Below, piece by piece: positions 35,595 through 52,310 of a stretch of 52,310 bases of DNA (position 1 is its first letter; each line of letters opens with the position of its first letter). Position numbers and translations under genes: made by a program. The DNA lies in the IMG/VR virus record IMGVR_UViG_3300027970_000039, positions 1-52,310 of that record; one strand, 5' to 3'. The notes under the pieces were generated by a model, which saw only the letters and a list, made by a program, of their open reading frames with translations, did not search any database and was not told where the DNA came from. This stretch comes from a virus.

Positions 35595-37103
35595 ATGGCT
35601 AAATATCGGATTGGGTTTAGTTCACAATTTACATTAACCGATGGTAAAGTTGGAATTGGAACAACAAATCCAATATCAAAGCTTTCTGTACTTGGTGATG
35701 TAAACGTTGTTGGTGTAATCACATCTTCAGCATTCTCTGGCGACAACTATAATGCATATCCATTTTATTCTGGAGTCACGAGTTCTACCTATGCCTCTCC
35801 ATCTGGAATTATGACTCCAGTATTGCAATTCTCACCTACTCCGAATAGAAGATATATTATACACTCAATTAATGTAGCAAATAAGGCAAGATTTCAACCT
35901 CAAGGAGCTGGAGCTACGGTATCCATTTCTACCGCAACGGGAGCAGTTACGTTCTTAACTCTTACTGGTGCAGGAACTGGATATACTTCTGCAGATACAT
36001 TTGTTGGATTTGGTACAACGAATGCTCAGAATTTAGTTCCAGGATTGATTTCTTTTGCGACGACTACATTTATTGGACTAGGAACTGTAGGAGACCCAGA
36101 ATATATCGGAGTTACGAGTGCAATCGGTATTATTACTGCGGTTTCTGGAGGAGCTATTACAGGAGTTGCAATTACTTATGGTGGATTTGGGTATACGAAT
36201 ATTCCAATCGTAACTATTCGTCCTCCTGTGGGAGGTGGTACACAGGCTACAGGAGTGGCGACAGTTACATACGGTGAAGTAGTGTCGGCATTTCTTACTA
36301 CTCCAGGAACAGGCTATGTAGAGCCTCCTGTGGTTTCAATTCTTTCTGGAACAGGAACCTTTGCGACTATCATTCCACAAGTAGATTCTGATGGAAAGCT
36401 TTTAAATTTAGCCGTGACTGAGAGAGGATATGGATATTCTAGATTGAATGTTTTAGGAAATAATGAAGAGAATGAGGTTTATATTTCTCTTCCAGGATTG
36501 GCTAAGACTGAAGTAGGAGTAGATGTAAGAATTGATAGATTTCCAGTTGGAGGAGGAACTACGGTTGAGAGTTATCTAGCTTTTGACGTTCCTATTCCCA
36601 TTGGTGGGTCTGTGGAGATTCTCAAGAAGCCAGCAGTCTTAAATCCAAATGATATTATTCAACTTCGGGGAATTGATTTTGATGGTTCTGGATTGTCTAA
36701 TGCAATTGATGTGTGTATCTCTTATGAAGAAACTACAAATCTTAATTTTATTGGATTTGGAACCATTACTGGAGTTAATTCTGGTCTGGGAACGGCAATT
36801 CTAAATGTGGGAATTATTTCTGCTACAACTCGTCCAATTTTGGTAGAATCATTGAGATTTACAAATACTGAGTTTGTGGGAGATTATGATATTTCAGTAA
36901 AAGTTGTGACTGGAGTTGGACAGACATTTTATCTAGTGAGAAATTTGATGCTTCCAGCATTTTCTTCGGTTGAATTGTGTGAAACTCCAAGAAGATTGCA
37001 AATTGGAGACCAGCTATTGTTAGATAACGAAACTGTTGGAGTTGACGACAATCTACCACAAACCATAGATATTCAATTATCTGGTAGAACAATTACATTC
37101 TGA
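35595..37103 (+). CDS. Virion structural protein with fibre and G-x-G-Y repeats (502 aa)
   Basis: The N-terminus has the fibre unit V-G-I-G-T-T-N-P-I-S-K-L-S-V-L-G. Residues 120-290 hold three or four G-x-G-Y repeats (G-A-G-T-G-Y-T, Y-G-G-F-G-Y-T-N-I-P, T-P-G-T-G-Y-V-E-P-P), the same type as in the preceding giant protein. The C-terminal 200 residues are a non-repetitive beta domain ending I-D-I-Q-L-S-G-R-T-I-T-F. It looks like a shorter partner or tip of the same appendage. Confidence 0.7.
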   Translation: MAKYRIGFSSQFTLTDGKVGIGTTNPISKLSVLGDVNVVGVITSSAFSGDNYNAYPFYSGVTSSTYASPSGIMTPVLQFSPTPNRRYIIHSINVANKARFQPQGAGATVSISTATGAVTFLTLTGAGTGYTSADTFVGFGTTNAQNLVPGLISFATTTFIGLGTVGDPEYIGVTSAIGIITAVSGGAITGVAITYGGFGYTNIPIVTIRPPVGGGTQATGVATVTYGEVVSAFLTTPGTGYVEPPVVSILSGTGTFATIIPQVDSDGKLLNLAVTERGYGYSRLNVLGNNEENEVYISLPGLAKTEVGVDVRIDRFPVGGGTTVESYLAFDVPIPIGGSVEILKKPAVLNPNDIIQLRGIDFDGSGLSNAIDVCISYEETTNLNFIGFGTITGVNSGLGTAILNVGIISATTRPILVESLRFTNTEFVGDYDISVKVVTGVGQTFYLVRNLMLPAFSSVELCETPRRLQIGDQLLLDNETVGVDDNLPQTIDIQLSGRTITF

Positions 37104-37112
37104 GGAATTATT

Positions 37113-37766
37113 ATGAGTATTTTTATTGCTTTACCTTGCTACGGTGGATTAGTTTGTGAAAAGACTACAATGAGTCTGTTTAATCTGGGAAAATTATTAG
37201 TAAGAGAAGGTGTGCCTCACGGACTATTCACAGTTGCAAATTCATCTTTGATTTCTCAGGGAAGAAGTAAAATTGCAAATTTCTTTTTAAATAATACTGA
37301 GCACGAATATCTATTCTTTCTAGATAGTGATATTGGATTTGACCCAACATCTGTTCTTCAACTCTTAAGGCACGATAAAGATGTTATTGCCGCTCCATAT
37401 CCAATGAAGTCTATACCTCTAAGATATAATTATAAAATTTTAGAGCCAGAAGAAACTCAAGGAGATTTAATTAAAATTGAGCATAATGGAATGGGATTCG
37501 TGATGATTCATCGCAGAGTATTTTATACAATTGCGAGTGCTTATCCAGAATTAAAATATTATCCATCTCTTGAAGATAGTAATGTGAGGCCCACTGAAGC
37601 CGAATATCATAATTCATATCACTACTTTCTAGAATATAAATATGGACCAAATTATATGGCCGAAGATATTAGTTTCTTCTTTCGGGCTCGTAGTTTAGGT
37701 TATGATTGTTGGTTAGACAAGAGTATTTCTCTTTCACATACTGGTTCACATATTTTTGGAGAATAA
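37113..37766 (+). CDS. GT-A fold glycosyltransferase
   Basis: The 217-residue protein starts F-I-A-L-P-C-Y-G-G and has A-N-S-S-L-I-S-Q-G-R-S-K-I-A. The metal/nucleotide-binding D-x-D is in Y-L-F-F-L-D-S-D-I-G-F (D71, D73). A-E-D-I-S-F-F-F-R-A near 193-202 is the usual acceptor-side region. It transfers a sugar from a nucleotide sugar. GAGGA overlaps the stop of the previous gene, nine bases before the ATG. It directly precedes the first six-repeat adhesin (three-base gap), so that protein is the most likely acceptor, although host lipopolysaccharide or phage DNA cannot be excluded. Confidence 0.8.
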   Translation: MSIFIALPCYGGLVCEKTTMSLFNLGKLLVREGVPHGLFTVANSSLISQGRSKIANFFLNNTEHEYLFFLDSDIGFDPTSVLQLLRHDKDVIAAPYPMKSIPLRYNYKILEPEETQGDLIKIEHNGMGFVMIHRRVFYTIASAYPELKYYPSLEDSNVRPTEAEYHNSYHYFLEYKYGPNYMAEDISFFFRARSLGYDCWLDKSISLSHTGSHIFGE

Positions 37767-37769
37767 TGA

Positions 37770-40679
37770 ATGTCTGACCTAAGAACTAATATTTTTAGTT
37801 TAAGTGAGGTTTATGAACTTCAGAAGGAAGGATTTTGGGTGAATACTAGCAGAGAAGCATATAGAAACTATCAATATCTTGTGGGAGGAGCCATCAATGG
37901 TGTTCCTACTATTGGCGTGTCTTTATCATTTCGAATTGACTTTTCAAATGATACCCGAACAATTAGGAGAGGTACACTTGCTTGGCGGCTTGGCGCAATC
38001 AGTTCAAATTTAAATTTTGCATATTTAGATATAAACCCTGAAACTACATTCCAAAGAATATCTTATTCAAATGATTTAATTGCTTCACAATTTAGGTCTG
38101 TTTCTTTGATTCCAACTTTTCTTCGCAGAGGTAGATCAGGTTTTGGAAATATAAATTTCGGATATTTTTCTGGAGGATGGAATGAAAATCCGCAATTAAT
38201 ATCAAATGTTGAGAGACTCAATTACGCAAATGATGTAGTTTCTCCAACAATGAGAGGACCATTAGAGCAAGCTATAGCACTTCAAGGTTCATATAGTACT
38301 TCAGATTTCGGTTGGGTAACAGGAGGAGGAGGAATTTCATCTCCTATCAGCATCTCAAAAATATCTAGAATTACATATGCGAATGATATGAATGTTGCTA
38401 GAGTCCGAAGTTTTCTACCTACGATACATCGGTTTGCACAAGGAGCTGGGAACTCAAATTTTGGTTGGATAATTAGTGGTCAACAAGTGAGTTATTCATC
38501 CTTGTCCACAGTCGCTCGTTTAAATTACTCCAATGATTTAGTTACTCCACAAATTCGTGGGCCATTACCATATGCTGCTGGTGGAGTGGTAGCTTCTAGT
38601 GGAAATTCAAATTATGCTTTATCTCATAATTCAGTATATCAATCTAATAATAATACGCAATCAAATAGAATAGATTATTCAAATGATACAAATACTCCCG
38701 TATATCGAGATATTAATAAGGTTTCTTCTTCTTGGGGTAGATTTGCTGCTGTTGGAGCATACTCATTTGGTGGTGCTCCCCAATCATATCTTGGAAAATC
38801 TTGGATTTCTACCGCTCCATATGGATATTTTGGTGGAGGTATAGATGGCTCTATTTCTACTATTTATTCTCATATGGGTAGAATTGATTATGCAAATGAT
38901 ACTGAAAATGCTGCTCTACGTGGAACGCTATTCTCAGCATTAAATTCAATGGCTTCCACTGGAAATTCAAGTTTTGGTTGGTTTGCGGGAGGAGGTTCTC
39001 CAACTGTTTCAAGTATCTCTCGTTTAGATTATCTCACAGATACCAATACTACAAGTTTAAGAGGACCACTCTCTATTGTCCGAACAAGATTTGCTGCGAC
39101 TGGAACTTCAAACTTTGGGTATTTTGCTGGGTCTAATGGAATCTCCTCTATTGATAGAGTCTCATACTCCAGTGATTTAGTTGCTGCAATTACTCGTGGT
39201 CCATTGAATGTGGGAAGACAGGATTTGATTGGATTGAGTAATATAAATTATGGATACTTTACTGGTGGAGCTTCGGCATCTACTACGATTTTAAGTAGAT
39301 TAGATTACTCAAATGATACCAGTGTAAATCAAGTCCGAAATGTTTCTACTCAAAGATTTTCATCCAGTGCTACTGGAAATGAAAACTTTGGCTATGTTGT
39401 AAATGGTACAACCACAAGTCCCACAAATATTTTACTCACTGAAAAAATAAATTATGCAAATGATACTGCAAGTTTATTGAGAGTAGGCACAATTTCTAAT
39501 GATAGGTCCGCAATGGGAGCTACTGGAAATTCAAATTCTGGATATTTTGCTGGAGGATTTAATTCTATTGGAAGATATAGTACGATAGATAAGATTGACT
39601 ACTCTTCTGATACTCAGATTTCTACAATACGTGGGCCTCTTACTGTAACTCGGGAATATATTGCATCTACATCGTCTCAATCTTATGGAGGTGCCCCGAG
39701 TACCACTACCAGTCCTATTCCGACATATATTAATTCTATGTTGAATAGAGACCCGAATAATGCATTAATCGTTCCTCAAAAAAGAGTTTTAGGTAGTTTT
39801 GGATACTTTGTTGGTACTACATCAAATTCTGGGCAACAAAGATTGGATTTCTCAAATGATTTGGTTGCTGCATCACCCAGAAGTTTCTTATCGTTGGTTA
39901 GACAGAATATTAGTGCAATTGGAAATAGAAATTATGGCTACTTTGGTGGTGGGTATCTTTCAGACACATCGGGAGTATCTACTGTAGAGAGATTAAATTA
40001 CACTAATGACAATATAGTTAATACTAGGGGTCCATTGGAGTCTTCTTTTAGATTTAGGTCTGGATTATGTGGAACTAACTTTGGGTATTTTGCTGGAGGT
40101 ATTGCTCTTGGAACTACTAGAACAAATATAGCTAGACTAACTTTTTCTAATGATACTTCTATCGGCACTCTCCGCACAAATTTAATACAAAGTAAATGTG
40201 TAATGAGCCCTGTTGGAAATATAAATTTTGGGTATTATGGGGGAGGGGTTTTAAATGTCAGCAACGTTAGAACTACGATGATAGAAAGATTGAGTTATTC
40301 TAATGATGGGGTTGTCCCAAATATAAGAGCAAATTTATTGTCTGTAAGAAATCTTAACTTTATTACAACATTTGGGGCCGCAGGAAACTCCAATTTTGGG
40401 TATTTTGGTGGTGGAAATAATGGAGTAAGTACGCTATCTTCATTGGAACGTATAGATTATTCCAATGACCTACAAATATTATTACCAAGAGGTCCATTAA
40501 CACAAAGTATTAATGCATTGGTAGCGACTGGAAATTCCAATTTTGGATGGTTTGCTTCAGTTAGTACAAGAACCGACCGTATAAATTATTCTAATGATAC
40601 TTTATTGGCATCAATTAGAGGCCCAATACTATTATCTGGTTCTGATTTTGTTGCAACCACAAATGCAAGAAATTCCTAA
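37770..40679 (+). CDS. Adhesin-like protein with three six-repeat (propeller-like) modules, 969 aa
   Basis: After a short N-terminal segment (N-I-F-S-L-S-E-V-Y), the protein is built of 18 imperfect repeats of 43-55 residues. The unit reads G-N-S-N-F-G-Y-F-x-G-G, a variable loop, then R-I-D-Y-S-N-D-T, x5-7, R-G-P-L and a variable end. By hand count they form three groups of six, separated by linkers near residues 332 and 637 with F/Y-G-G-A-P. The second linker ends V-P-Q-K-R-V-L-G-S-F-G-Y. The unit resembles kelch-type blades, so each group may be a six-bladed beta-propeller. It ends A-R-N-S. Long variable loops suggest receptor binding. The fold is a prediction. Confidence 0.75.
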   Translation: MSDLRTNIFSLSEVYELQKEGFWVNTSREAYRNYQYLVGGAINGVPTIGVSLSFRIDFSNDTRTIRRGTLAWRLGAISSNLNFAYLDINPETTFQRISYSNDLIASQFRSVSLIPTFLRRGRSGFGNINFGYFSGGWNENPQLISNVERLNYANDVVSPTMRGPLEQAIALQGSYSTSDFGWVTGGGGISSPISISKISRITYANDMNVARVRSFLPTIHRFAQGAGNSNFGWIISGQQVSYSSLSTVARLNYSNDLVTPQIRGPLPYAAGGVVASSGNSNYALSHNSVYQSNNNTQSNRIDYSNDTNTPVYRDINKVSSSWGRFAAVGAYSFGGAPQSYLGKSWISTAPYGYFGGGIDGSISTIYSHMGRIDYANDTENAALRGTLFSALNSMASTGNSSFGWFAGGGSPTVSSISRLDYLTDTNTTSLRGPLSIVRTRFAATGTSNFGYFAGSNGISSIDRVSYSSDLVAAITRGPLNVGRQDLIGLSNINYGYFTGGASASTTILSRLDYSNDTSVNQVRNVSTQRFSSSATGNENFGYVVNGTTTSPTNILLTEKINYANDTASLLRVGTISNDRSAMGATGNSNSGYFAGGFNSIGRYSTIDKIDYSSDTQISTIRGPLTVTREYIASTSSQSYGGAPSTTTSPIPTYINSMLNRDPNNALIVPQKRVLGSFGYFVGTTSNSGQQRLDFSNDLVAASPRSFLSLVRQNISAIGNRNYGYFGGGYLSDTSGVSTVERLNYTNDNIVNTRGPLESSFRFRSGLCGTNFGYFAGGIALGTTRTNIARLTFSNDTSIGTLRTNLIQSKCVMSPVGNINFGYYGGGVLNVSNVRTTMIERLSYSNDGVVPNIRANLLSVRNLNFITTFGAAGNSNFGYFGGGNNGVSTLSSLERIDYSNDLQILLPRGPLTQSINALVATGNSNFGWFASVSTRTDRINYSNDTLLASIRGPILLSGSDFVATTNARNS

Positions 40680-40685
40680 TATATA
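40668..40685 (+). repeat. 18-bp repeat around the stop codon of two adhesin genes (copy 1)
   Basis: AGAAATTCCTAATATATA is identical at 47627-47644. It contains the last codons (R-N-S in frame) and stop of the 969-aa gene and continues past the stop. Confidence 0.8.
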
Positions 40686-40708
40686 CTATACTTATATTAT
40701 AATTCACA

Positions 40709-41761
40709 ATGATTTCTGGTGCTACTGAGACTGCGTATACGTATCTTTCACAATATTATCAATTTCCAGAGAATGTTTTAGTTTCACATTTACCACAGAA
40801 ACTTAAAAGTAAATCCTCTTCAATTAAAATTCTCTGGGCTCATCACGCATATGACCAGCAGGTTTATCATAATTTTACTCACGATGATATAACTCATATT
40901 GTTACTCCATCATATTGGGCAAAGGAAACTCTTCAAAAATATCATAAAGTTCCAGAAAATAAAATTACAGTCATTCCAAATGGAGTGGATTCAATTTACA
41001 CATATTCAAATCAGAAACAAAAGCAACTCATATATACCTCTATTCCTTATAAAGCACTTCCCATTCTTGCTCAGATTATTCCATTAGTTCATCAAAGACA
41101 TCCAGACGCAATCTTTAGAATATTTTCATCTATGTCTTTATATGGTCCACAAATTGATTCATATATTGAATTATACGAAAAACTCAAAGCACTTCCAAAT
41201 GTGAAATATTCCCGAGCAATAGATAGAGAATTATTGATTTTTCATTATCAAGAGTCTGCATTTTTTATAAGTCCTTGTATTTGGGAAGAAACTTTTGGAG
41301 TTTCAATGTGTGAAGCAATGAGATGTGGAGCATATCCCATTATTACTGATATTGGAGCTTTAGAGGAAATTGCAGGTCCAAATTTAGCGACAGTAGTTCC
41401 AATTGAAGGAACCCGAACACCAAAAGGTTATGAAGTTACAGAGAAGTTTATCTCCAACTTTGTAGAGGCAACTTGTATGGCTTTGGATTATTTTGATAAT
41501 GAAAAAGAAATCTATAATCAAGTATCTCAGTCTTGTAGTGATTGGATTGAAAAATCTTATGATTGGAAGAATATCGCAAAAACTTGGGAAAACTTAATTC
41601 ATAAATTGCAAAATAAATCCTCTGGCGTAGGATTTGGAAATAAAATATTAAAGTCATCAAGTAGATTGAGTCAGACTTATACAGAAGATGTAGTATTTAC
41701 ATCACCAAGTGTGACTAAACCCAGTATAAGTTATTTTAACTTTGCTAAATACGGTAGTTAA
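40709..41761 (+). CDS. GT4-family (GT-B) glycosyltransferase
   Basis: The 350-residue protein carries V-T-P-S-Y-W-A-K and V-I-P-N-G-V-D in the N-terminal half. Near residues 190-210 it has the E-x7-E nucleotide-sugar motif in E-E-T-F-G-V-S-M-C-E-A-M-R-C-G, then I-T-D-I-G-A-L-E-E. These are standard retaining GT4 marks. It lies directly after the first six-repeat protein. The last 60 residues are a non-catalytic tail. The likely job is adding a sugar to a virion protein or extending a sugar placed by the upstream GT-A enzyme. The acceptor is not shown by the sequence. Confidence 0.85.
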   Translation: MISGATETAYTYLSQYYQFPENVLVSHLPQKLKSKSSSIKILWAHHAYDQQVYHNFTHDDITHIVTPSYWAKETLQKYHKVPENKITVIPNGVDSIYTYSNQKQKQLIYTSIPYKALPILAQIIPLVHQRHPDAIFRIFSSMSLYGPQIDSYIELYEKLKALPNVKYSRAIDRELLIFHYQESAFFISPCIWEETFGVSMCEAMRCGAYPIITDIGALEEIAGPNLATVVPIEGTRTPKGYEVTEKFISNFVEATCMALDYFDNEKEIYNQVSQSCSDWIEKSYDWKNIAKTWENLIHKLQNKSSGVGFGNKILKSSSRLSQTYTEDVVFTSPSVTKPSISYFNFAKYGS

Positions 41762-41792
41762 ATCGTTTGAATTTTATTGGAGTTGAATTTTT

Positions 41793-42725
41793 ATGTCCAT
41801 ATTACCTGAAAATAGTTTAGGATTTAGAACAGTTGAAGAAGCAGTTGGAGATAAATCTGGTGAATATCTCAAAAAAGCATTTGAAAATGTTTATAGATAC
41901 CACGAGATTGATAAGGAGCTTGCTCAAGGTAGAACTAATTTCCAATTAGAAAAGTTTGCACTTCTAGAAACCTACACTTTAGAAAGTGCATATGAAAGTG
42001 TTCTCAAATCTCGTCGTCAGATGGCGGAAGGATTGATGAGTAAACTTCTTGAAATGCAAGAAAAGGTCAGAGAATTTGAATATAAGTGGAAAGACCAGAG
42101 CCATTCTGAACCTATTCAATGGGAATATAGCGCAATGGGAGGCGGTGGAAAGAAGTTGTGTTGGTATGATTTGGACCAAATGCAATTGGAACATTTTCTA
42201 CGCTCTAGTGAACTAGAAGTGAGAGATAGGCTTTATCAAATTGAACATTTGGATAAAATGCTTGCGGAACTTACTGAACGTAATGGAGGAAATCCCGTAT
42301 CTAGAGAACAATTCCTTGCGAATGAAGAGAATTACTGGAAGGGTAGATTTAGTGAACAGATGTTAGACGAAATTCTTGGTTCTCAACTTGGATGTAGTAT
42401 TGGTAACATTCACAGTGTTCGTAGGTCTACTGCTCCTGCTTTGGTGGATAAGAGAAATCAATTCAACAATGGATTCCCATCTCTAGGAGAAGCATTAACT
42501 TCCACAGAAGGTCGTATGAAGTTCGTAAGTGAACTAGAGAAGAATGTAATTCAAGGTTATGAAGATGTAATGGGAGTAAATCTGGGTGCGGGTAATTTTC
42601 TACCTACTGAGGAAAGAGCGCAACTTATTCAAGAACGAATGAAAGCATTTCGTGAACTTTCACTCTCGGGTTCCGTTGAAGAAGTTCCACAACTAGAAGA
42701 TTCCACTGAGGTTGTGAAAGAATGA
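41793..42725 (+). CDS. Coiled-coil protein of unknown function (310 aa)
   Basis: The protein is highly charged and helical, unlike its beta-rich neighbours. Several coiled-coil stretches (about 55-105 and 150-180; Q-L-E-K-F-A-L-L-E-T, M-S-K-L-L-E-M-Q-E-K-V-R-E) flank a Gly-rich turn (S-A-M-G-G-G-G-K-K). A G-S-Q-L-G-C-S-I-G-N motif is near 205. No signal peptide or enzyme motif is seen, and I recognise no family. Its place inside the adhesin/modification cassette suggests a chaperone, assembly factor or scaffold for the modified fibres. Confidence 0.65.
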   Translation: MSILPENSLGFRTVEEAVGDKSGEYLKKAFENVYRYHEIDKELAQGRTNFQLEKFALLETYTLESAYESVLKSRRQMAEGLMSKLLEMQEKVREFEYKWKDQSHSEPIQWEYSAMGGGGKKLCWYDLDQMQLEHFLRSSELEVRDRLYQIEHLDKMLAELTERNGGNPVSREQFLANEENYWKGRFSEQMLDEILGSQLGCSIGNIHSVRRSTAPALVDKRNQFNNGFPSLGEALTSTEGRMKFVSELEKNVIQGYEDVMGVNLGAGNFLPTEERAQLIQERMKAFRELSLSGSVEEVPQLEDSTEVVKE

Positions 42726-42731
42726 TAAGGA

Positions 42732-42739
42732 AATAAATA
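42732..42739 (+). promoter_or_regulatory. Candidate late promoter before the second adhesin
   Basis: AATAAATA ends 25 bases before the ATG of the 667-aa repeat gene in a 39-base intergenic space. Confidence 0.5.
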
Positions 42740-42764
42740 CTTATTATAGTTCTTATGGGGAATA

Positions 42765-44768
42765 ATGCCTAATAATGCTGGGATTTTCTCCCTAAGTACT
42801 CATTATAATAAAAATTTAAGTTTAGATATTTCATCTAGAACTAGAGAATCTTATAGTGAGTATGGGTATTTATTTTCTGGTCGGAATCGGCTGGCGAATT
42901 TCTTTCCAACCAATATTGAAAGAAAGGATTATAGTACTGATACAACAACTAATTCTAACAGGGGATTTATACTTGCACCTTCTATATATACCTCTGTGGT
43001 TGGAAATTCCAATTTTGCATATCATTCGGATGATTATGGGTTCAGTAGAATATATAGATTAAATTATTTAAACGATACTGCTTCGGTTCAATTCAGATGT
43101 GTGGATTCTATTTTAAACAGGCGTGGTGGAAACGTAGGAGGAACTAAAGATTATGGGTGGTTTATTGCTGGAGCTACATCAAAAATCAGTCGTATTAATT
43201 ATTCAGATGACACTGTTCCTACTCTCATTCGTGGAAATGATTTAGTCTGGGGAATTCGTGGTACTAGTGGGCAAAATATAAACTATGCTTGGAGTATTGG
43301 TGGAGATACTGCAAGCCTTAGTGGTGGTGGTGGATTCGCAACCAGTACTATAAGAAGATTCAATTATAGCAATGATTTAGCTACAGTTAGTTCACGTGGT
43401 TCATTCTTATTTGCCTGTAGATTGAATGCAACTACAGGAAATGAGAATTTTGGATACGTTTCGGGTGGACAGTATATTCCCCCATTTGCTATAATATCAA
43501 CCACGGGTAGAATTACATATGTAAATGATTTAGTGTTTCCAGTTATAAGAGGTTCGTTGAGTGCTGCTCGTGGATATTTGTCTGCTTCAGGTACTTCTAG
43601 TTTTGGATATTATTCTGGTGGGGTTCAAATTAATGGTGGTGTAGACAATTCAATCGTAGAGAGATTGGATTACTCAAATGATACTAATATTATGAGTATT
43701 CGTGGGCCATTATTTCAAAATAGAAATTCCACTCAAGCTAATATAACTAAAGGTTCATTTGGTGGTGCGTCAGTCTCACAATATTCTGGAGCAGGAAGGC
43801 AAAGTTTCTTTGATAATCAGAGAATGAAGTCGCCTTCAGATACCACATCATATAGCGTCAGAAAAAATGCTTTACTTTCTTATGGATACTTTGGAGGAGG
43901 ACTTACGGCATATACTCCAAGTGTTACAAACACTAGTTGTATATCAAGATTACAATACTCCACAGATACATTAAACATACCCATTCGGTCGTCAATTGCA
44001 CTTGCGCGAAGAAATTTAACTTCTTCTTCAAATAAAAATTTTGGGTATCATTATGGTGGATTCGCGGAGCCAGCTACACTAATATCAAATATCGACAGAA
44101 TTCAATATTCAAATGATACTTTAGGTTCGGTAGATAGAGCTAAGTTAGTGACTATTCGTCATAATTGTATTGCAACTGGTTCTAATCAGTTTTCGTATAT
44201 AATGAGTGGAACTAATACTACAACTATAGAAAGATATAATTACTCTAATGATAATTTAAACTCTACTCAAAGAGGAAATGGCTCGATTTTGCGTAATAGT
44301 GCGTGTGGATTAGGAATTTTAAATTTTGGATACACTGTTGGAGGAAACTCTGCTTCGTATTATTCTATAGTTGATAGAATCAATTATTCAAATGATTTAG
44401 CAACGGCATCAGTTCGTGGAAATATAACTTTAGCGAGAAGATTGTCTGGAGCTTCTGGGAATTTAAATTTTGGTTATGTTGCAGGTGGTACTTCTGGGAG
44501 TAATCATTCAACTATTGACCGTATAGATTATTCAAATGATACTACAATTTCTATCACTAGAGGAACATTGAGTGGAAGTACATATGCGTCAGCTGCAACA
44601 GGAACTTCTAATTTCGGATATTTTTCTGGAGGAAGAGGAGTTCTTGATGGACTTTTGACTAGAGTTGAAAGAATTGATTATGCGAATGATACAAATTCAC
44701 CATCCATAAGAGGACCATTGAGTTTTGGTGTAAATAGTCACGCTGCAACTACCAATTCTATGCTATAA
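42765..44768 (+). CDS. Adhesin-like protein with two six-repeat modules, 667 aa
   Basis: This is a paralogue of the 969-aa protein. It has the same N-terminal G-I-F-S-L motif and the same repeat unit (F-G-Y-x-x-G-G, loop, R-I-D-Y-S-N-D-T, R-G). By hand count there are twelve repeats in two groups of six. The linker near residues 329-367 starts S-F-G-G-A-S and contains a basic stretch. Several blades are degenerate in group one. The 5' region shares 38 identical bases with the third paralogue. Predicted role: a receptor-binding propeller fibre, possibly an alternative to the other two. Confidence 0.75.
   Translation: MPNNAGIFSLSTHYNKNLSLDISSRTRESYSEYGYLFSGRNRLANFFPTNIERKDYSTDTTTNSNRGFILAPSIYTSVVGNSNFAYHSDDYGFSRIYRLNYLNDTASVQFRCVDSILNRRGGNVGGTKDYGWFIAGATSKISRINYSDDTVPTLIRGNDLVWGIRGTSGQNINYAWSIGGDTASLSGGGGFATSTIRRFNYSNDLATVSSRGSFLFACRLNATTGNENFGYVSGGQYIPPFAIISTTGRITYVNDLVFPVIRGSLSAARGYLSASGTSSFGYYSGGVQINGGVDNSIVERLDYSNDTNIMSIRGPLFQNRNSTQANITKGSFGGASVSQYSGAGRQSFFDNQRMKSPSDTTSYSVRKNALLSYGYFGGGLTAYTPSVTNTSCISRLQYSTDTLNIPIRSSIALARRNLTSSSNKNFGYHYGGFAEPATLISNIDRIQYSNDTLGSVDRAKLVTIRHNCIATGSNQFSYIMSGTNTTTIERYNYSNDNLNSTQRGNGSILRNSACGLGILNFGYTVGGNSASYYSIVDRINYSNDLATASVRGNITLARRLSGASGNLNFGYVAGGTSGSNHSTIDRIDYSNDTTISITRGTLSGSTYASAATGTSNFGYFSGGRGVLDGLLTRVERIDYANDTNSPSIRGPLSFGVNSHAATTNSML
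42828..42865 (+). repeat. 38-bp repeat shared by two adhesin genes (copy 1)
   Basis: These 38 bases are identical to 45731-45768 and encode the first-repeat segment S-S-R-T-R-E-S-Y-S-E-Y of both proteins. The flanking sequence has diverged strongly, which suggests recent exchange or strong conservation of this attachment region. Confidence 0.85.
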
Positions 44769-44787
44769 TAATTGAAAATTTTAAATT

Positions 44788-45636
44788 ATGAAATATACTT
44801 ATAGATTTATGGCTGGACTTCCAAGAAGTGGGTCCACATTAACCAGAACAATTTTAAATACTCATTCAGAAATTTACGCAGGACCAATTTCACCATCAGT
44901 TGAATTACTCTATTACACTCAGAGTTATTTTGATAATCATAGTGAAATGATGAAGTCTTATCCAAGACCAGAAAGTTGTTATAATGTTCTTTCTCAAATT
45001 GTGAATAATTTTTATGAGCCTATAATGAATCAAAATGGTAAGTCTATTATTTTGGACCATAATCGGGCAATTCCAAATAATATTGAAAGATTTCGTCAAT
45101 ATGTAACTGAAGATATTAAAATCATTTGCCCAGTGAGAGGAGTCTTGGATATTCTTACCAGTTTTATTACTCTGATTCATAAAAATTCAGATTCAGTCTC
45201 TTTTATAGACCAGTATTTAAAAGAAAAAAATCTTGAATTAACGGATGATAATCGGTGTGATTACTTAATGAGTCCTGGAATTGGAATTGTAGATGAATCT
45301 CTATGGGCTCTCTCTAGAGCATATAAGACTGGTGAGCAGAATTGCTTATATGTCTATGAGTATGATGACTTGGTGAAAACTCCAGTTGAAATTTTAAATG
45401 AAATTCATGATTTTTTAAATCTTGAAAGATATGAGTATTCATTGAATAATTTAGAGAATGAATTTCCTGAGGATGATATCTTTTATTATAATCTTGCGGG
45501 AATGCACTCTGTTAGAAGAAAAATTGAAAAAATAAGTAACGCTCCAGAAGAGGTATTGAGTGATTATGTTTTGAATAAGTATAATAATTTGGAATTCTGG
45601 AGAGATATAAAGTTCAATCATTACTTAAAGGCCTAA
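44788..45636 (+). CDS. Sulfotransferase
   Basis: The 282-residue protein has the PAPS-binding 5'-phosphosulphate loop L-P-R-S-G-S-T-L-T at residues 11-19. The 3'-phosphate motif is in C-P-V-R-G-V-L-D-I-L-T-S-F at 114-126 (R117, S125). G-L-P-R-S-G-S-T-L resembles the loop of tyrosylprotein and cytosolic sulfotransferases. The enzyme moves sulphate from PAPS to a hydroxyl on protein, sugar or lipid. It is placed between two adhesin genes whose repeats contain Tyr flanked by Asp (D-Y-S-N-D), the local context favoured by tyrosine sulfotransferases. The acceptor is a hypothesis; sulphation of added sugars is an equal alternative. Confidence 0.85.
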   Translation: MKYTYRFMAGLPRSGSTLTRTILNTHSEIYAGPISPSVELLYYTQSYFDNHSEMMKSYPRPESCYNVLSQIVNNFYEPIMNQNGKSIILDHNRAIPNNIERFRQYVTEDIKIICPVRGVLDILTSFITLIHKNSDSVSFIDQYLKEKNLELTDDNRCDYLMSPGIGIVDESLWALSRAYKTGEQNCLYVYEYDDLVKTPVEILNEIHDFLNLERYEYSLNNLENEFPEDDIFYYNLAGMHSVRRKIEKISNAPEEVLSDYVLNKYNNLEFWRDIKFNHYLKA

Positions 45637-45639
45637 ATA
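45632..45639 (+). promoter_or_regulatory. Candidate late promoter before the third adhesin
   Basis: CCTAAATA overlaps the end of the sulfotransferase gene and ends 22 bases before the ATG of the 658-aa repeat gene. Confidence 0.5.
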
Positions 45640-45661
45640 CTAAAAAAGTATCAATAATTTT

Positions 45662-47638
45662 ATGGCGGAAATTAATACACAAGGAATATTTTCGCTAGGG
45701 CAACATAGAAGTCGTTCCTTAGATAATAGAATTTCATCTAGAACTAGAGAATCTTATAGTGAGTATGGATATTTTTCTGGTGGATATGTACTTCGAACTT
45801 TTTCGAGAATATCTACAATATTTAGATTTGACCACTCTAATGATACTCGAGGAGTTTCCCAACGTTCAGGAATTCCTGCTAATGTTAGAGATGGAACTGC
45901 GTGTAGCAATTTAAATTTTGGATACTATTGTGCTGGTAAACTAATTTCAAGTGTATATCGTATAGACTACAAGTCAGATATAACCATAGCTACAATTCGT
46001 GGTTCACTTGCTCATAGTATTGGTAGATGGGCTACTTCCGCTGGAAATTCGAATTTTGGATATGTTTTGGGTGGATCTGACATACCAGCTGCAATGGCAT
46101 CTTCATCAATCTCTAGAATTAATTATGCTAATGATAGCAATGCAGCAATATCTAGAGGAAATTTAAATATACCCTCGTATCAAGGACTTTCTTGTGGAGA
46201 TATCAATTATTGTCGTAATTATGGTAAATTTACTGCAACTTCCTTGGGGACTACCACTTTTAATAGAAGTTCCTATGCAAATGACACCAATTTAGTATCT
46301 TTTAGAGGAACTCTATCTCGTACTGATGTTGGTGGAGGTGTGGGGAATTCTATATATGGTTGGATTACTTATATTAGTTTTACTCAAATTTCTCGTAATG
46401 ATTTTTCAAATGATACTTCTGGATTTTCATCAAGAGGATTTATATCTAAACTTTTCGCACAATATAGTGGAGAAGGAAATTCAAATTTCGGTTGGCTTGG
46501 TGATGTTAGCTTTCAAAGTATTAGTACTAGTAACATATTAAGAATAGATTATTCAAATGATACTATTGTAACGCCCACACGCTCAGTTTTTCCTACTTCA
46601 TCTACGAGTGGGAGAGTTGCACATTCATCTTCATACTTTGGTGGTGCTCCAAACACTTCCAATATCACAACTCTACCTACACAAATTCAAAATAATATAA
46701 ACTATAATTTATCTAATGCTTCAACCGTTCCACAAAAAAGAGCTTTAGGAAGTTTTGGATATTTTGTGGGCGGAACGAATGGACCTACTATATTTTCTAC
46801 AAATACTCGTATACAATTTTCAAATGATTCAGTAGTTTCTACTAATAGAGGACCTCTTTCTCAGAATAGATGGCAGCATCAAACAACAGGAAATTCAAAT
46901 TTTGGATATATTGCGGGAGGAAGAGTTGACATACCTTCCGCAATTATTACTACCGTAGACAGAGTAGATTATGCAAATGACATTTCAGGTTCAATAGATA
47001 GAGGGCCATTAAGTTCTGCTTCGTACTATACAAGAGGTTGCACATCAAGTTCTTTTGCATATTTTAATCAGTATACGAGTATTAGTAGATTAAGCTATTC
47101 TGATGATAGTGTAACCACTGTAGTTCGGGGAAACCGAGTTGTAGGCTCAAATCATTATGCAATTTCTCAAAACTCAAACTTTGCATATTATTCTGGCGGT
47201 GGTGATATTGGTGGAGGAAATGCTCGTTCAAATATTGATAGATTCCAATTTTCAAATGATACTTCAACTACTTTAAATAAGGGTAAGTTAATTTTTGCTA
47301 AATCTGAGTCTACTGCTGTCGGGAACAATAATTTTGGATATATCGGAGCCGCTAGAGGAGTATCTCCAATACAAATAACATTTATCGAAAGAATTGATTA
47401 CTCTAATGATACCAATGTAGCCAGTGTTCGGATTAATTTAGATACATTTCGAGTTGCAAATACTGGAAATTCTAACTTTGGATACTTCTCTATGGGAGGA
47501 AGAACGGCGGGAGATAATATCATCAGTTCTACAGATAGATTAGATTATTCAAATGACGTAGCCACTACAAGTAGAAGAGGAAATAGTACCGTAAATTATT
47601 GGTTTTCTAGAGGTTTAACAAATGGTAGAAATTCCTAA
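45662..47638 (+). CDS. Adhesin-like protein with two six-repeat modules, 658 aa
   Basis: This is the third paralogue: G-I-F-S-L-G at the N-terminus, S-S-R-T-R-E-S-Y-S-E-Y-G-Y-F at the first repeat, and twelve repeats in two groups of six by hand count. The linker near residues 323-360 begins Y-F-G-G-A-P and ends V-P-Q-K-R-A-L-G-S-F-G-Y-F-V-G. That is nearly the same junction as in the 969-aa protein. It ends N-G-R-N-S, like the A-R-N-S end of that protein, and 18 bases around the stop are identical. The cassette therefore grew by duplication and exchange of modules. Expected to be a virion surface protein. Confidence 0.75.
   Translation: MAEINTQGIFSLGQHRSRSLDNRISSRTRESYSEYGYFSGGYVLRTFSRISTIFRFDHSNDTRGVSQRSGIPANVRDGTACSNLNFGYYCAGKLISSVYRIDYKSDITIATIRGSLAHSIGRWATSAGNSNFGYVLGGSDIPAAMASSSISRINYANDSNAAISRGNLNIPSYQGLSCGDINYCRNYGKFTATSLGTTTFNRSSYANDTNLVSFRGTLSRTDVGGGVGNSIYGWITYISFTQISRNDFSNDTSGFSSRGFISKLFAQYSGEGNSNFGWLGDVSFQSISTSNILRIDYSNDTIVTPTRSVFPTSSTSGRVAHSSSYFGGAPNTSNITTLPTQIQNNINYNLSNASTVPQKRALGSFGYFVGGTNGPTIFSTNTRIQFSNDSVVSTNRGPLSQNRWQHQTTGNSNFGYIAGGRVDIPSAIITTVDRVDYANDISGSIDRGPLSSASYYTRGCTSSSFAYFNQYTSISRLSYSDDSVTTVVRGNRVVGSNHYAISQNSNFAYYSGGGDIGGGNARSNIDRFQFSNDTSTTLNKGKLIFAKSESTAVGNNNFGYIGAARGVSPIQITFIERIDYSNDTNVASVRINLDTFRVANTGNSNFGYFSMGGRTAGDNIISSTDRLDYSNDVATTSRRGNSTVNYWFSRGLTNGRNS
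45731..45768 (+). repeat. 38-bp repeat shared by two adhesin genes (copy 2)
   Basis: Exact second copy of 42828-42865, in the same reading frame and at the same place near the start of the paralogous gene. Confidence 0.85.
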
Positions 47639-47665: not shown

Positions 47666-48316
47666 ATGAATTTATTGTCTAATATTTTAATTGAATCAGA
47701 TGTATTAACTTCAGAAGCAATTGATGAATTGTTAACTCATTGTAAAACTTCTACGTATGAGGATTTATCAGTCTTTGACCCGGAGAAGACGAATACTACT
47801 GGGAAAACTTCTTGGGAGGTAGATAAGAAAGTTAGAGATACTCAAATGATTCCATTTGATGATTTGGTTCCCAAAATTGAAGATTTATTTAAAAATATTG
47901 TTTCTCATATTGTTAATCCATTTTATGATGTTAAATTAAGAGACAGTGAATTTCCACAATGTTTGAGATATGGCGTGGGTGGTCATTATAGCCCTCATAT
48001 CGATGGAAGGTCTCTCTGGCTTTCTCCTACTGGAGATAAGATTTGGAGAAAATCTACCGATAGAGATTTAACGTTTGTATTATATTTGAATGACGATTTT
48101 GAAGGTGGAGAACTTATATTTCCTGACTTACATATTCAAGTTAAACCTAAGCCTGGATTATTAGTAGCATTTCCATCCGACCAAAATTATGTTCACGGAG
48201 TAAATCCTGTTAAATCTGGAGAAAGATTTTCAATTGTAACTTGGGCAAGGATTTCTGGATTTCTCACAAAAGAAGAGGAAGACCAAGAACTCATTAAAAA
48301 ATATGGTGTATGCTAA
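47666..48316 (+). CDS. 2OG-Fe(II) oxygenase, prolyl 4-hydroxylase-like
   Basis: The 216-residue protein has the full facial triad and 2-oxoglutarate-binding residue: H111-x-D113 (Y-S-P-H-I-D-G), H177 (Y-V-H-G-V) and R187 (G-E-R-F-S-I-V-T-W). Between them is F-V-L-Y-L-N-D-D-F-E-G-G-E-L, standard in P4H-type enzymes. It hydroxylates a C-H bond, most often of proline, using O2 and 2-oxoglutarate. It directly follows the third adhesin gene. The R-G-P-L in most adhesin repeats offers a recurrent proline, but the true substrate is unknown. Phage P4H-like genes are common in T4-like cyanophages, usually of unknown role. Confidence 0.88.
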   Translation: MNLLSNILIESDVLTSEAIDELLTHCKTSTYEDLSVFDPEKTNTTGKTSWEVDKKVRDTQMIPFDDLVPKIEDLFKNIVSHIVNPFYDVKLRDSEFPQCLRYGVGGHYSPHIDGRSLWLSPTGDKIWRKSTDRDLTFVLYLNDDFEGGELIFPDLHIQVKPKPGLLVAFPSDQNYVHGVNPVKSGERFSIVTWARISGFLTKEEEDQELIKKYGVC

Positions 48317-48611: not shown

Positions 48612-51600
48612 ATGGCTCTTTCTAGATTAGCAAATCTGAATAATGACCCAACTGGAGCCAAGCTCTATGTAGACCCAAATAATTTTGATGCTACTGATGG
48701 TGTAGAAAATAGAGGAACGTCTCCAAACCGACCATTTATTTCAATTGCTAGAGCAGTTTTAGAAAGTGCCGTCTTTAGTTATCAACCAGGAAGAAATAAC
48801 GATAGAAACGATAGAACAACAATTCTCCTAGCTCCTGCGGTTCATTATATAGACAATAGACCAGGATTTAGTGTTGAAAATATAAATGGAGCCGCAGTAT
48901 TTAAGAAAAGAACTGGGCCTGATACTTGGACAGTTGTTACCTTAGACCCGTTTGGAGAAAATACAAATTTCGATAGTTTTGATTCAAACAATGATTTATA
49001 CAAGTATAACTCAGTCAATGGTGGATTAATTCTACCCAAAGGAACTTCTATTAAAGCAATAGACCCACGTAAAACAAAAATTAGACCACTGTATGTTCCT
49101 GACCCAACAGATTCCACTGTAGAAAGTTCAAGTATATTTAATCTTACTGGTGGATGTTATCTGAATAAGGTTACATTTTTTGATGCGGATATAAGTAAGT
49201 TCTCATATAAAAATTATTCTGACAGTAGAAGTGTTCCTACATATTCACATCACAAGTTAGTTACTGCTGTATTTGCAGATGGAGTAAATCCAGTTAGATT
49301 GGGAGCAACTCAAACTAATCTCACAGATTTACAAATGTACTATTATAAGCTGACTAGAGCTTATAATAGTCTATCAGGTAGAAATATTGAAGATTATCCT
49401 TCTAATTTAGATTTTGAGCCCAGTGTAGAAGAATATCGTATTGTTGGACCTCTTCAGGACAATCTAATAGGTATTTCTAGTATCCGAGCAGGTAATGGAA
49501 ATGGTACTGGAGACAATAGTATTATTACCGTTACGACTGCAGATTTACAATCCAAATCTGAAATTCCTCATAATTTTTCAGTAGATACTCAGATTACGAT
49601 TCGTGGAATTACTGAATCTACAACTGCATATAATGGAACATTTACTGTAAGAGAAGTTGTTGGAATTAACACCTTCACTTACGTCACAACCATATTACCT
49701 GCAGAAGTATTACCAGCACCAAGTTCATTTGATATAGCTACAGTATCGGTAGAAAGTGATACTGTTTCGTCCTCATCTCCATATGTTGCTGAGTGTTCTC
49801 TAAAATCCACAAAAGGAATGTGTGGTATGATTGCCGATGGCTCTAAGGCCACTGGATTTAGGTCTATGGTGGTAAAGGAATATACTGGAATTTCATTACA
49901 AAATGACGACAATGCATATCTCATATATGATAATGGTGTGTATTACGACAATATAACTCTTCCTAGTTCCAGTAAATTGAGGCCATTATATCAAAACTCA
50001 AGAGCGATATACAAGCCAGAATACGAAAACTTTCATATTAAAGTCACGAATAATGCATTCGTTCAGGCAGTTTCAGTTTTTGCTATTGGATATGCAGAGC
50101 AATTTGTATCTGAAAGTGGTGGAGATATTCGAATTACTAATGCTAATTCCAACTTTGGTGCAAACGCATTAAGTAGCCTTGGATTTAAAGCTGAAGCATT
50201 TAGTAGAGATGATACTGGATATATCACTCACATCATTCCTCCAAAAGAACTCTCTTCAGTTGAGAATCAAATCTCCTGGGTATCTTTGGATATTCCTAAA
50301 ACTCAATCAGTTGCAGACGCTAAAAAATTATATCTCTACTCATATAATGATATTAATGTTCTTCCGAATTATAAACTGGAAGGATATAAAATTGGTGCCC
50401 GAGTTTCAGCTAAATTATTTTTAACCGAATCTCAGATTACATACTCATCTCCAATCTATATGGCCACACCAAATGGTCAAGAAGGACTGGTTGCAAGAAA
50501 AGAATATACAATCTCTAGAAGTGGGAATTTAAATAATATTTCCACAAGCAATATTATCACACTAACTCAAAATCATAATCTATTTTCTGGAGAAAATCTT
50601 AGATTGTTCAGTGATACTGGACAAGTTTTTGATGGAGTTGCTTCCGATACTTTATATTATGCAATTACAAATACAGTAGACAATACATTATCTTCAAATC
50701 AGATTAAATTAGCACTGTCTTTGTCTGATGCGCAATCTAATATTCCAATTCTTGGATTAACCAGAAGTGGTGGAGTTATTACAATAGTAAGTTCAGTTAC
50801 GGATAAAATTCCTGGAGATTTTGGACACCCAATTCAATGGGATTCTGTAAATCTACAGTGGTATCTGAACACTGCTTCTACATCAATAAATGAAATATAC
50901 ACTAAGATTTTAACCTATGATGTAAGTACATTTGGAAATGAGACTCCTGTAACATACATTAATAGAATTTCTGAGCTTCGTTCAATTGACGATAGTATCT
51001 ATAAACTTCGTTATGTGATTCCAAAGGAATTCATTTCTGCAAGACCACCACAACTTGGATATATCATACAAGAAAGTGATAATGTAGCAATCACAACGGC
51101 AAGCGTATCTGAAGCAAGTCCAATTTTAAACTCTACTGAACTTAGAAATGATAGAGTTATTGTGGGAGTAAGTGCTGCAGGCACTGTGAGCGGTTCTCAG
51201 TTGGTTACGGTTACTACAGAATTACCACACAGATTTGTTCCCGGAGATATAGTTAAATTAAATAATATTAGAAGTACCAACAACTCATCTGGAATTGGAA
51301 TTGTAAGTACTTACAATGGTTCTTATTCTGTTCTAGACACTCCATCTTCTAGAATTTTCACATATAGACTAGACGGACTGAAAATAAATCCAGGTTCGTT
51401 TACAAATTTAGTAGATTCTAGAACCACAAGACAACAAAGAGATGGTATACCTTCAGTTTCTCGTCAATCATATAAAGAAAAATTCTATATTTATGATATA
51501 GATGAAATTAAATCATACATTCCTGGAACTCAAGGACAGGACGGAGTATATCATTTAACCATTATCAAATCCTCAGTTGGAATTTCTCCCAATGTAGGAT

Positions 51601-52310
51601 ATGGATTATCTAATAAGTATTTCTCTCAAGATATTCGCAATTTATATCCACAAATAGATAGAGACAATGCAGTATCTGACCCAAATCCTGCAGTGAGTTT
51701 TGCGGATTTATCCATTATTGGTAAAGTTGCAACAGATAATAAAAAGAATTCTATTACATTAGAATCTCTTATTGATTATCTTCAAAATACTAAAGTTGGA
51801 TTTGGAATTACCAATATTACCTTAAGTGGTTTGGGTAATACCACTCTCACACTTTTTACTGATGTAGAACACAAGTTAAACTCCATTAAGAGTGTGAACT
51901 TTCTTACAGTTGGTGCGGGATATGGAATAAACAGTACATTCTATTCTAGAGAACTGTTAGACTTGAAGTTTAGCGAAGAAAATCCTACTTGTAAAGTTTC
52001 AACTGACGGAAGTGGTCAAATTATTCCAAGTTCATTTAGACTTGTAGATGCAGGAACTGGTCATACTGTAGGAGAACAACTTGGAGTTCTTGGTGGTATT
52101 CCTTCAAATGCTGTGCTAGAAATTACGGACATCAATAATAATATCGGGGATTCTCTACAAATCTTAGGTGCAACTCCAGCAAGTATTAATGACGTATACG
52201 AAATTCTAAGTGTTCCTAGTAAGAAGTCTATTGTACTATATTCTCCAAGTGGTATTTCTACATATTCAAGAAATACTAATGGAAAGCTTCCCATAGGTGT
52301 TATTGGTGGT
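48612..52310 (+). CDS. Giant virion structural protein with beta-helix N-terminus (3' truncated by window edge)
   Basis: The frame from ATG 48612 appears open to the window end (about 1233 residues; spot-checked, not read codon by codon). The N-terminus L-Y-V-D-P-N-N-F-D-A-T-D-G-V-E-N-R-G-T-S and P-F-I-S-I-A-R-A-V-L-E is the start pattern of pectin-lyase-like repeats. T-I-L-L-A-P-A-V-H-Y and G-G-L-I-L-P-K-G-T-S-I-K continue it. Later parts are mixed beta with V-S-T-Y-N-G-S-Y-S-V-L and G-A-G-Y-G-I. The start echoes the beta-helix of the 1725-aa protein, so both may form tail or baseplate appendages. An in-frame TAG three bases upstream fixes the start. Confidence 0.75.
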   Translation, partial: MALSRLANLNNDPTGAKLYVDPNNFDATDGVENRGTSPNRPFISIARAVLESAVFSYQPGRNNDRNDRTTILLAPAVHYIDNRPGFSVENINGAAVFKKRTGPDTWTVVTLDPFGENTNFDSFDSNNDLYKYNSVNGGLILPKGTSIKAIDPRKTKIRPLYVPDPTDSTVESSSIFNLTGGCYLNKVTFFDADISKFSYKNYSDSRSVPTYSHHKLVTAVFADGVNPVRLGATQTNLTDLQMYYYKLTRAYNSLSGRNIEDYPSNLDFEPSVEEYRIVGPLQDNLIGISSIRAGNGNGTGDNSIITVTTADLQSKSEIPHNFSVDTQITIRGITESTTAYNGTFTVREVVGINTFTYVTTILPAEVLPAPSSFDIATVSVESDTVSSSSPYVAECSLKSTKGMCGMIADGSKATGFRSMVVKEYTGISLQNDDNAYLIYDNGVYYDNITLPSSSKLRPLYQNSRAIYKPEYENFHIKVTNNAFVQAVSVFAIGYAEQFVSESGGDIRITNANSNFGANALSSLGFKAEAFSRDDTGYITHIIPPKELSSVENQISWVSLDIPKTQSVADAKKLYLYSYNDINVLPNYKLEGYKIGARVSAKLFLTESQITYSSPIYMATPNGQEGLVARKEYTISRSGNLNNISTSNIITLTQNHNLFSGENLRLFSDTGQVFDGVASDTLYYAITNTVDNTLSSNQIKLALSLSDAQSNIPILGLTRSGGVITIVSSVTDKIPGDFGHPIQWDSVNLQWYLNTASTSINEIYTKILTYDVSTFGNETPVTYINRISELRSIDDSIYKLRYVIPKEFISARPPQLGYIIQESDNVAITTASVSEASPILNSTELRNDRVIVGVSAAGTVSGSQLVTVTTELPHRFVPGDIVKLNNIRSTNNSSGIGIVSTYNGSYSVLDTPSSRIFTYRLDGLKINPGSFTNLVDSRTTRQQRDGIPSVSRQSYKEKFYIYDIDEIKSYIPGTQGQDGVYHLTIIKSSVGISPNVGYGLSNKYFSQDIRNLYPQIDRDNAVSDPNPAVSFADLSIIGKVATDNKKNSITLESLIDYLQNTKVGFGITNITLSGLGNTTLTLFTDVEHKLNSIKSVNFLTVGAGYGINSTFYSRELLDLKFSEENPTCKVSTDGSGQIIPSSFRLVDAGTGHTVGEQLGVLGGIPSNAVLEITDINNNIGDSLQILGATPASINDVYEILSVPSKKSIVLYSPSGISTYSRNTNGKLPIGVIGG

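Follow-up and report, generated by a model that had tools for sequence, protein, structure and literature searches.

What protein architecture lies behind repeats that come in sixes, and what use would a virus have for it? The question is raised by IMG/VR record IMGVR_UViG_3300027970_000039, analysed here as a single stretch of 52,310 nucleotides (hereafter the window), in which three paralogous repeat proteins, A, B and C, are encoded within positions 37770-47638. A first reading of the letters alone (the original prediction) had proposed that these proteins are built from six-unit modules closing into kelch-like rings. On the evidence below, we consider it likely that A, B and C are strings of closed six-bladed kelch-type propellers (three, two and two rings, respectively) that would serve as tail-associated modular adhesins.

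Three proteins built from six-repeat modules

The three genes and their seven modules are as follows (gene slots are defined below).

37770..40679, + strand: Protein A, 969 amino acids (aa); N-terminal segment and three six-repeat modules, 18 repeats; gene slot 1; phrog_19111, E 9.7e-78
37851..38783, + strand: module A1, six repeats
38805..39701, + strand: module A2, six repeats; folded alone as 38787-39719, a predicted closed six-bladed propeller
39786..40676, + strand: module A3, six repeats
42765..44768, + strand: Protein B, 667 aa; N-terminal segment and two modules, 12 repeats; gene slot 2; phrog_19111, E 1.9e-40
42849..43775, + strand: module B1, six repeats
43869..44765, + strand: module B2, six repeats
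45662..47638, + strand: Protein C, 658 aa; N-terminal segment and two modules, 12 repeats; gene slot 3
45752..46654, + strand: module C1, six repeats
46742..47635, + strand: module C2, six repeats

The repeat unit spans about 48 aa and carries the core R-I/L-x-Y-S-N-D. A regular expression (regex) for this core matched 18, 11 and 12 times in A, B and C; with a wider residue class the counts became 18, 12 and 12, the overlooked core in B being R-Y-N-Y-S-N-D. Shuffled versions of each protein (1000 per protein) gave on average 0.010-0.013 matches and at most one. A first profile hidden Markov model (HMM), seeded with 38 of the 42 window repeats, found 18 core-bearing matches in A together with two weak partial matches at ring starts, and a later HMM grouped the repeats in copies of A, B and C from the fetched loci as 6+6+6, 6+6 and 6+6. 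The 18, 12 and 12 repeats counted in the original prediction were thus recovered by the widened regex and by the HMM.

Long spacings follow repeats 6 and 12 in A and repeat 6 in B and C. The seven modules so delimited are 297-311 aa long and align over their full length, the six others being 30-37% identical to A2. The linkers carry the motifs FGGAPQ and YGGAPS (A), FGGASV (B) and FGGAPN (C); the final repeat has no linker, and the C-termini read ATTNARNS (A), ATTNSML (B) and GLTNGRNS (C). A linker with FGGAP or FGGAS had been expected after every sixth repeat: this stands for three of the four linkers, the other being YGGAP, and not for the last repeat of each protein. An IFSL motif, also foreseen, is present in the N-termini of all three. 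A scan of A, B, C and a relative from locus L069 against NCBIfam returned no family, and neither Rfam families nor transfer RNAs were detected in the window.

A module predicted to fold as a closed propeller

For the structure prediction of module A2 (window 38787-39719), 60 further module sequences from the window and related loci were supplied with it. The best model reached a predicted local distance difference test score (pLDDT) of 88.7 and a predicted template-modelling score (pTM) of 0.89, with pLDDT of 84.8-88.7 across five models. It forms a closed ring of six four-stranded blades, in which strand B ends in the double glycine (GG). The strand order is B1-C1-D1, then A2-B2-C2-D2 and onward, and the last strand (residues 293-296) takes the place of strand A in blade 1. 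Keap1 closes its ring in the same manner, strands B-C-D coming from the N-terminal end and strand A from the C-terminal end. By this model, blade 1 of each ring would be assembled from both ends, the N-terminal end supplying strands B to D and the C-terminal end strand A, so that the last repeat closes the ring.

Foldseek matched the A2 model to designed SAKe6 kelch proteins (2.7e-15) and to Keap1 (2.0e-14) in the PDB, and KLHL12 was also among the structural matches. VIA-align superposed the model on SAKe6BE (7onc) with a Z of 36.6 and a root-mean-square deviation of 1.9 over 272 residues, and on Keap1 with a Z of 35.0-35.6 among the chains listed; the first and last aligned model residues were 11 and 297 in most top rows. 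Matches in BFVD included several poxvirus kelch proteins and one phage protein named galactose oxidase. At the sequence level, a profile of the 61 modules reached SAKe6FR (7e-10) and the kelch domain of human KLHL12 (5e-7), and the sequence of protein A alone reached SAKe6FR at 0.0018. The predicted ring and these profile matches agree with the closed kelch-like rings of the original prediction.

Kelch repeats are recognized by a double glycine after strand B and a conserved aromatic residue in strand C, and the canonical repeat carries a tryptophan in strand D. Among 996 repeats from the window and its relatives, model positions 37 and 38 are glycine in 871 and 883, respectively, and the aromatic position 4 is tyrosine in 871 and phenylalanine in 112. 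Tryptophan lies outside the four commonest residues at each of positions 9-18 in these 996 repeats, where the commonest residues are A T A S P K G P L S. The window repeats thus differ from canonical kelch in lacking a conserved strand-D tryptophan, and also in having a conserved YSND turn and a (K/R)G(P)L motif. They resemble Keap1, KLHL12 and SAKe6 in their predicted six four-stranded blades, in the GG that ends strand B and in the reach of the profile to KLHL12 and SAKe6FR; they differ in stringing several rings on one chain and in falling below the cut-off for Pfam kelch families.

Six as a rule among relatives

Searching viral contigs with an alignment of two repeats yielded 51 loci, drawn from the best 80 of 147 confirmed stretches. 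The resulting first set, which includes loci fetched earlier and retains near-duplicates such as two copies of A and B, holds 77 open reading frames (ORFs) with at least three repeats, 63 of them complete. Proteins from uncultivated viral contigs carry 6, 12, 18, 24, 30 or 36 repeats, and 55 of the 63 complete ORFs have a multiple of six. The eight others comprise one spurious match (L069, counted as 37 with a spurious N-terminal match), one missed core (L077, counted as 29, with a core starting with K) and six frame-broken gene pieces: L070 (16, with a frame break near its end) and five pieces from the named phage S-SKS1 (8, 9, 5, 3 and 3). In whole S-SKS1 stretches a linker follows six cores.

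The spacing between repeats follows the same rule. The 5'-complete, non-redundant ORFs, excluding S-SKS1, have 141 long spacings (at least 57 aa), of which 134 coincide with multiples of six, or 137 once the missed core of L077 is corrected; the remaining four, of 57-70 aa, lie within a ring. A second set of 97 complete new ORFs was found through neighbouring genes. Multiples of six were seen in 61 of these with the first model and in 86 after the model was re-estimated on this same set, so that the latter count is not blind. Ten of the 11 leftovers (two of the ten read by eye) point to multiples of six, given spacings that are doubled, spurious or split by a linker, or a long tail beyond the final match.

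Several relatives depart in other ways. Repeat genes of S-SKS1 (L001: HQ633071.1 201-208 kb; L014: 1-1.2 kb) are split over several ORFs by frame breaks, with repeats at both ends of the linear record, which may reflect either a sequencing problem or real decay. The third module of L070:7828-10428 stops early, at the frame break within its repeats. The ORF L162:2331-3587 has a diverged repeat (GVFGGG ... TIDYITI ... GDL), counted as six by eye; it matches phrog_19111 at 6e-22, is preceded by a stretch weakly like the virion structural family phrog_6005 (3.5e-5), and perhaps belongs to a wider superfamily.

What holds the number at six? We compared 1086 blades from 51 proteins, all with multiple-of-six counts. 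Across rings of one protein, blades of the same index share an identity of 0.560 and blades of different index 0.544 (standard deviation about 0.14, given without a significance test); adjacent blades within a ring share 0.572, and blade 1 is less similar to all others, at about 0.50. It therefore seems that blades are replaced almost regardless of position while their number stays six. The near absence of an effect of blade index points to ring closure as what holds, and may select for, the number. We also considered whether the six blades are left over from a recent duplication of whole rings; this is not favoured, same-index blades being scarcely more similar than others.

Variation is concentrated in the DA and BC loops

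Loop lengths were taken from the 878 of 996 repeats that fit a partition regex, which permits 2-3 residues in the AB loop and at most 10 in CD. Mean lengths (standard deviations) are 9.0 (0.33) for CD, 2.8 (0.40) for AB, 7.9 (0.87) for DA and 14.4 (2.27) for BC, the AB and CD spreads being partly imposed by the regex. When all 996 repeats were aligned by HMM with no limit on length, gaps and insertions again concentrated in BC. The loop between the GG and DY parts, said at the outset to vary greatly, is therefore indeed the most length-variable of the four. Residue entropy peaks in the DA loop, at 2.4-3.7 bits, and in BC, where it rises to 3.9, with single positions near CD and in AB at about 2.9-3.0. 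The most conserved positions of the repeat are its core motifs, and neither DA nor BC holds any invariant position. In Keap1 the ligand face is formed by the DA and BC loops. Judged from sequence, each ring may present one variable binding face made of these loops.

Whole rings are exchanged at the linkers

Close relatives can share some rings and differ strongly in others. By BLASTP, the L058 and L056 proteins are 100% identical in rings 1 and 2 and 37% in ring 3; L053 and L058 share ring 3 at 98%, with rings 1 and 2 at 40% and 53%; and the slot 2 proteins of these last two loci share ring 2 at 98%, with rings 1 and 3 at 50% and 41%. In L077 and L083 it is ring 1 that differs (44%, against 78-98% for rings 2-5). 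One pair comes from different slots: ring 1 of the L053 slot 2 protein is 92% identical to that of the L029 slot 3 protein, the others being at 51% and 37%. DNA identity shifts at or beside the linkers in all five pairs examined. The linkers are thus the joints at which whole rings are exchanged. The six-ring L060 and five-ring L068 proteins match in their first, fifth/fourth and last rings (82-89%) and differ as if one ring had been gained or lost.

The N-terminal segment tracks the gene slot

Repeat genes were assigned to slots by their upstream neighbour: a tail-fibre-like, 35595-like or 37113-like gene for slot 1, a DUF6445, 41793-like or 40709-like gene for slot 2, and a sulfotransferase gene for slot 3 (gene names refer to window positions). 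Regexes written for one clade failed to type most N-termini outside it, and one of them did not tell slot 1 from slot 2; a regex-free comparison was therefore used. It covered 99 ORFs, after 61 without an IFSL-like match were dropped and ORFs with other neighbours were excluded. The nearest neighbour lay in the same slot for 86% of ORFs when judged by the 18-aa N-terminal segment and for 54% when judged by the first ring (chance, 34%); without pairs that have similar first rings, the figures were 85% and 44%. The slot difference of the N-terminal segment was reached by none of 500 label shuffles, which ignore relatedness.

Swapped proteins tell a similar story. In two swap pairs the first 40 aa keep 91-100% DNA identity beside a replaced first ring, and a third pair shows 93% and 71%. 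Such retention fits a docking tag that stays in place while rings move. The putative N-terminal virion anchor of the original prediction therefore gains support, the 18-aa segment being a closer guide to the slot than the first ring is. Among named phages the N-terminus was matched in S-SKS1 only, at E 7.

Gene neighbourhood and linked enzymes

The repeat genes are interleaved with and flanked by the following genes.

25040..30217, + strand: tail fibre gene, upstream flank; phrog_17885, 2.2e-272
35595..37103, + strand: weak tail-fibre match, upstream flank; phrog_5342, 4.6e-9; relatives precede slot 1
37113..37766, + strand: possible glycosyltransferase, cassette; phrog_1574 (function unknown), 1.3e-30; phrog_34859 glycosyltransferase, 4e-4; Anp1 below cut-off
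40709..41761, + strand: group 1 glycosyltransferase, cassette; PF00534
41793..42725, + strand: conserved protein of unknown function, cassette; relatives recur beside repeat genes
44788..45636, + strand: sulfotransferase, cassette; PF13469; best solved-structure match protein-tyrosine sulfotransferase 1
47666..48316, + strand: 2-oxoglutarate (2OG)-Fe(II) oxygenase, cassette; PF13640; best solved-structure matches prolyl hydroxylases
48612..52310, + strand: tail fibre gene, downstream flank; phrog_529, 6.1e-290; extends past the window end

Three non-repeat genes, for a glycosyltransferase, the protein of unknown function and the sulfotransferase, thus lie within 37770-47638. Also upstream is a gene for the baseplate hub (phrog_1922, 2.8e-121). 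Its closest matches are in Synechococcus phages (best 37%), which suggests that the host may be a cyanobacterium. An endolysin- and tail-lysin-like gene (window 16131-17954; phrog_3084, phrog_1047) lies near the baseplate genes.

The same enzymes accompany the repeats elsewhere. Directly upstream of 60 distinct repeat ORFs stood a sulfotransferase in 20 cases and a DUF6445-like gene in 16; directly downstream of 66 stood a 2OG oxygenase (25), a DUF6445-like gene (16) or a glycosyltransferase-like gene (15). Relatives of the 37113-37766 and 40709-41761 genes likewise recur beside repeat genes. Reverse searches started from the enzymes, using the best 80 of 347 loci for the sulfotransferase profile and the best 80 of 577 for the oxygenase profile, the latter narrowed to the 44 loci whose full matches ranked best. 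A repeat ORF directly follows 44 of the 51 distinct sulfotransferase genes that have a next ORF, and directly precedes 30 of the 38 distinct oxygenase genes that have an ORF ahead of them, both figures being biased upward by profile seeds that were themselves repeat-flanked. Linkage as an artefact of repeat-based searching was set aside, given that it holds with sulfotransferase and oxygenase queries alone, the seeds of these being from repeat-flanked genes.

Both enzymes keep a motif typical of their families. PRxGST is the 5'-phosphosulfate-binding motif of sulfotransferases, and its P12, R13, G15, S16 and T17 are invariant in eight rows; against solved structures the profile matched protein-tyrosine sulfotransferase 1 (TPST1) at 1.5e-5 over 72 positions, with polyketide and CurM sulfotransferases nearly level (3.4e-5 and 3.9e-5). 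HxD...H is the iron triad of 2OG oxygenases, and the oxygenase keeps H111, D113 and H177 invariant in seven rows, its profile matching prolyl 3- and 4-hydroxylases (2.2e-11 and 3.6e-10). We hypothesize that the sulfotransferase, oxygenase and glycosyltransferase-like products modify the rings; they could equally build a virion glycan or act on host sugars.

Some loci vary the cassette. In L037:7927-9333 a carbamoyltransferase (PF16861, 1e-65) follows the 2OG oxygenase, and other loci have ORFs of similar length there. In L043:27-1355 the preceding glycosyltransferase and the 41793-like protein make up a single ORF, and other loci have ORFs of about 586 aa that may represent this fusion too. 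Single rings are fused to a LamG domain in L048:884-2521 and, in L051:8087-11206, to a Gly-rich domain similar to a tail fibre assembly family.

Relation to known proteins

Among 50,697 named phage records, matches to A at 1e-5 are limited to four, of which two are S-SKS1 and two come from single-cell marine viruses. S-SKS1 resembles the window in its related repeats, in the annotated sulfotransferase that separates them and in two ORFs that match the 2OG oxygenase, and differs in that its repeats are spread over several ORFs. PHROG 19111, a family with no known function, matches A and B; protein C matched no PHROG at E 0.1. One scan of host genome contigs gave 19 pattern-matching stretches, none of which was confirmed by tblastn.

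Kelch-like proteins of jumbo phages (CBB_550, CBB_552 and CBB_554; BcepSaruman) are structural matches to module A2. Kelch domains have been reported in such phages, and CBB_552 was found in mature phage CBB (PMC5259590); the available part of that account does not mention chains of two to six rings, counts in steps of six or the swapping of rings. The function of these domains was termed not yet elucidated in a further paper (PMC7760394). Other reports mention a kelch-repeat protein in cyanophage P-HM2 (PMC3037559), find a ninefold higher frequency of kelch repeats in long reads from marine samples than in assemblies (PMC9238414), and discuss roles in nitrogen signalling and DNA repair for the many 2OG oxygenases of cyanophages (PMC3037559). 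Beta-propeller lectins also occur in the eBAP3 fibres of phage-tail-derived particles, the extracellular contractile injection systems (eCIS), where the propellers are joined with collagen-like shafts; the text describing them does not use the word 'kelch' (PMC12923769). The literature searched, mostly at the level of titles and abstracts, held no description of multi-ring kelch strings in phages, of their six-step counts or of ring swapping.

Weighing the interpretations

The fold and the repeat count are well supported; the adhesin role is a proposal. In it, the N-terminal segment would dock each protein at a slot-specific site on the virion and each ring would show its variable DA/BC loop face to a ligand on the host surface. 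Rings would be swapped, added and lost as whole units, with the linkers as crossover joints, and the neighbouring glycosyltransferase-like, sulfotransferase and 2OG oxygenase products probably act on the same assembly.

Several points weigh against this proposal. The closed-ring prediction covers one of the seven window modules, A2, and a model of full-length A was poor (pLDDT 54.6, pTM 0.36), its arrangement of rings along the chain being unreadable. A Pfam scan of A, B and C found no kelch family at E 0.1, and among the 61 modules Kelch_1 matched one, Kelch_3 two, Kelch_4 two and Kelch_KLHDC2_KLHL20_DRC7 one, with best E-values of 1.3e-4 to 2.3e-3. Given these weak or absent matches and the lack of a conserved strand-D tryptophan, the modules are better called kelch-type by fold than canonical kelch repeats. 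(A SNARE match in three of the 61 modules, at 3e-4, and other weak Pfam matches were taken as chance.) The eleventh leftover of the second set, L134:6316-9015, has a five-repeat second module and is the sole clear exception to six; its repeats are near-identical, and assembly may have collapsed them to five. First rings also differ by slot to a small extent (0.407 versus 0.399, reached by 7 of 500 shuffles, all pairs). Finally, the placing of the repeat proteins on the virion derives from gene position between tail-fibre genes, ligand binding is hypothesized from gene position and loop variation, and that variation could be drift.

The last point leads to the reading that closed propellers sit on the virion as spacers or a coat, with drifting loops and no receptor to bind. 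Lengths that vary by whole rings, from one to six, would suit a spacer, and variable loops alone are no proof of binding; yet variation is concentrated in the DA and BC loops, and close relatives replace rings by very different ones, as specificity modules would. We consider this reading unlikely. Poxvirus kelch proteins act inside cells, and several of them are among the BFVD matches of A2, which would accord with kelch scaffolds, such as adaptor proteins, that work inside the infected cell and form no part of the virion. The position of the repeat genes between tail-fibre genes and the fusion of two relatives to LamG or Gly-rich domains make such an intracellular role improbable. The presence of CBB_552 in mature phage CBB argues in the same direction (PMC5259590).

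Could the rings be enzymes, galactose-oxidase-like or glycan-cleaving, in place of binders? Kelch folds include galactose oxidase, and a phage protein of that name is among the BFVD matches, but conservation is highest in the core motifs of the repeat and no DA or BC position is invariant; as read from sequence, catalysis would be very improbable. Short repeats in a row could in principle also form an open solenoid or fibre that never closes. The confident closed model of A2 and counts held to multiples of six leave next to no room for it, and we reject it.

Implications

Phage kelch propellers have been reported before. Strings of one to six rings, a strict count of six, ring exchange and N-termini bound to gene slots would together constitute a modular adhesin system, and one spread among uncultivated tailed phages. 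Ring swapping and the linked, putatively modifying enzymes are additions to what was originally predicted. A broader and tentative possibility, which we put forward with considerable doubt, is that in a large family of tailed phages, cyanophage-like ones included, the host-binding organs are strings of interchangeable rings, each string addressed by its N-terminus to a single site on the tail, with the rings modified by adjacent phage-encoded enzymes (sulfation of tyrosine or glycan, prolyl hydroxylation, glycosylation), such that specificity would depend on both ring choice and modification. The recurrent linkage to sulfotransferase and hydroxylase-like genes raises the testable question of whether phages modify their own tail proteins, and points to a further possible function for certain 2OG oxygenases of cyanophages.

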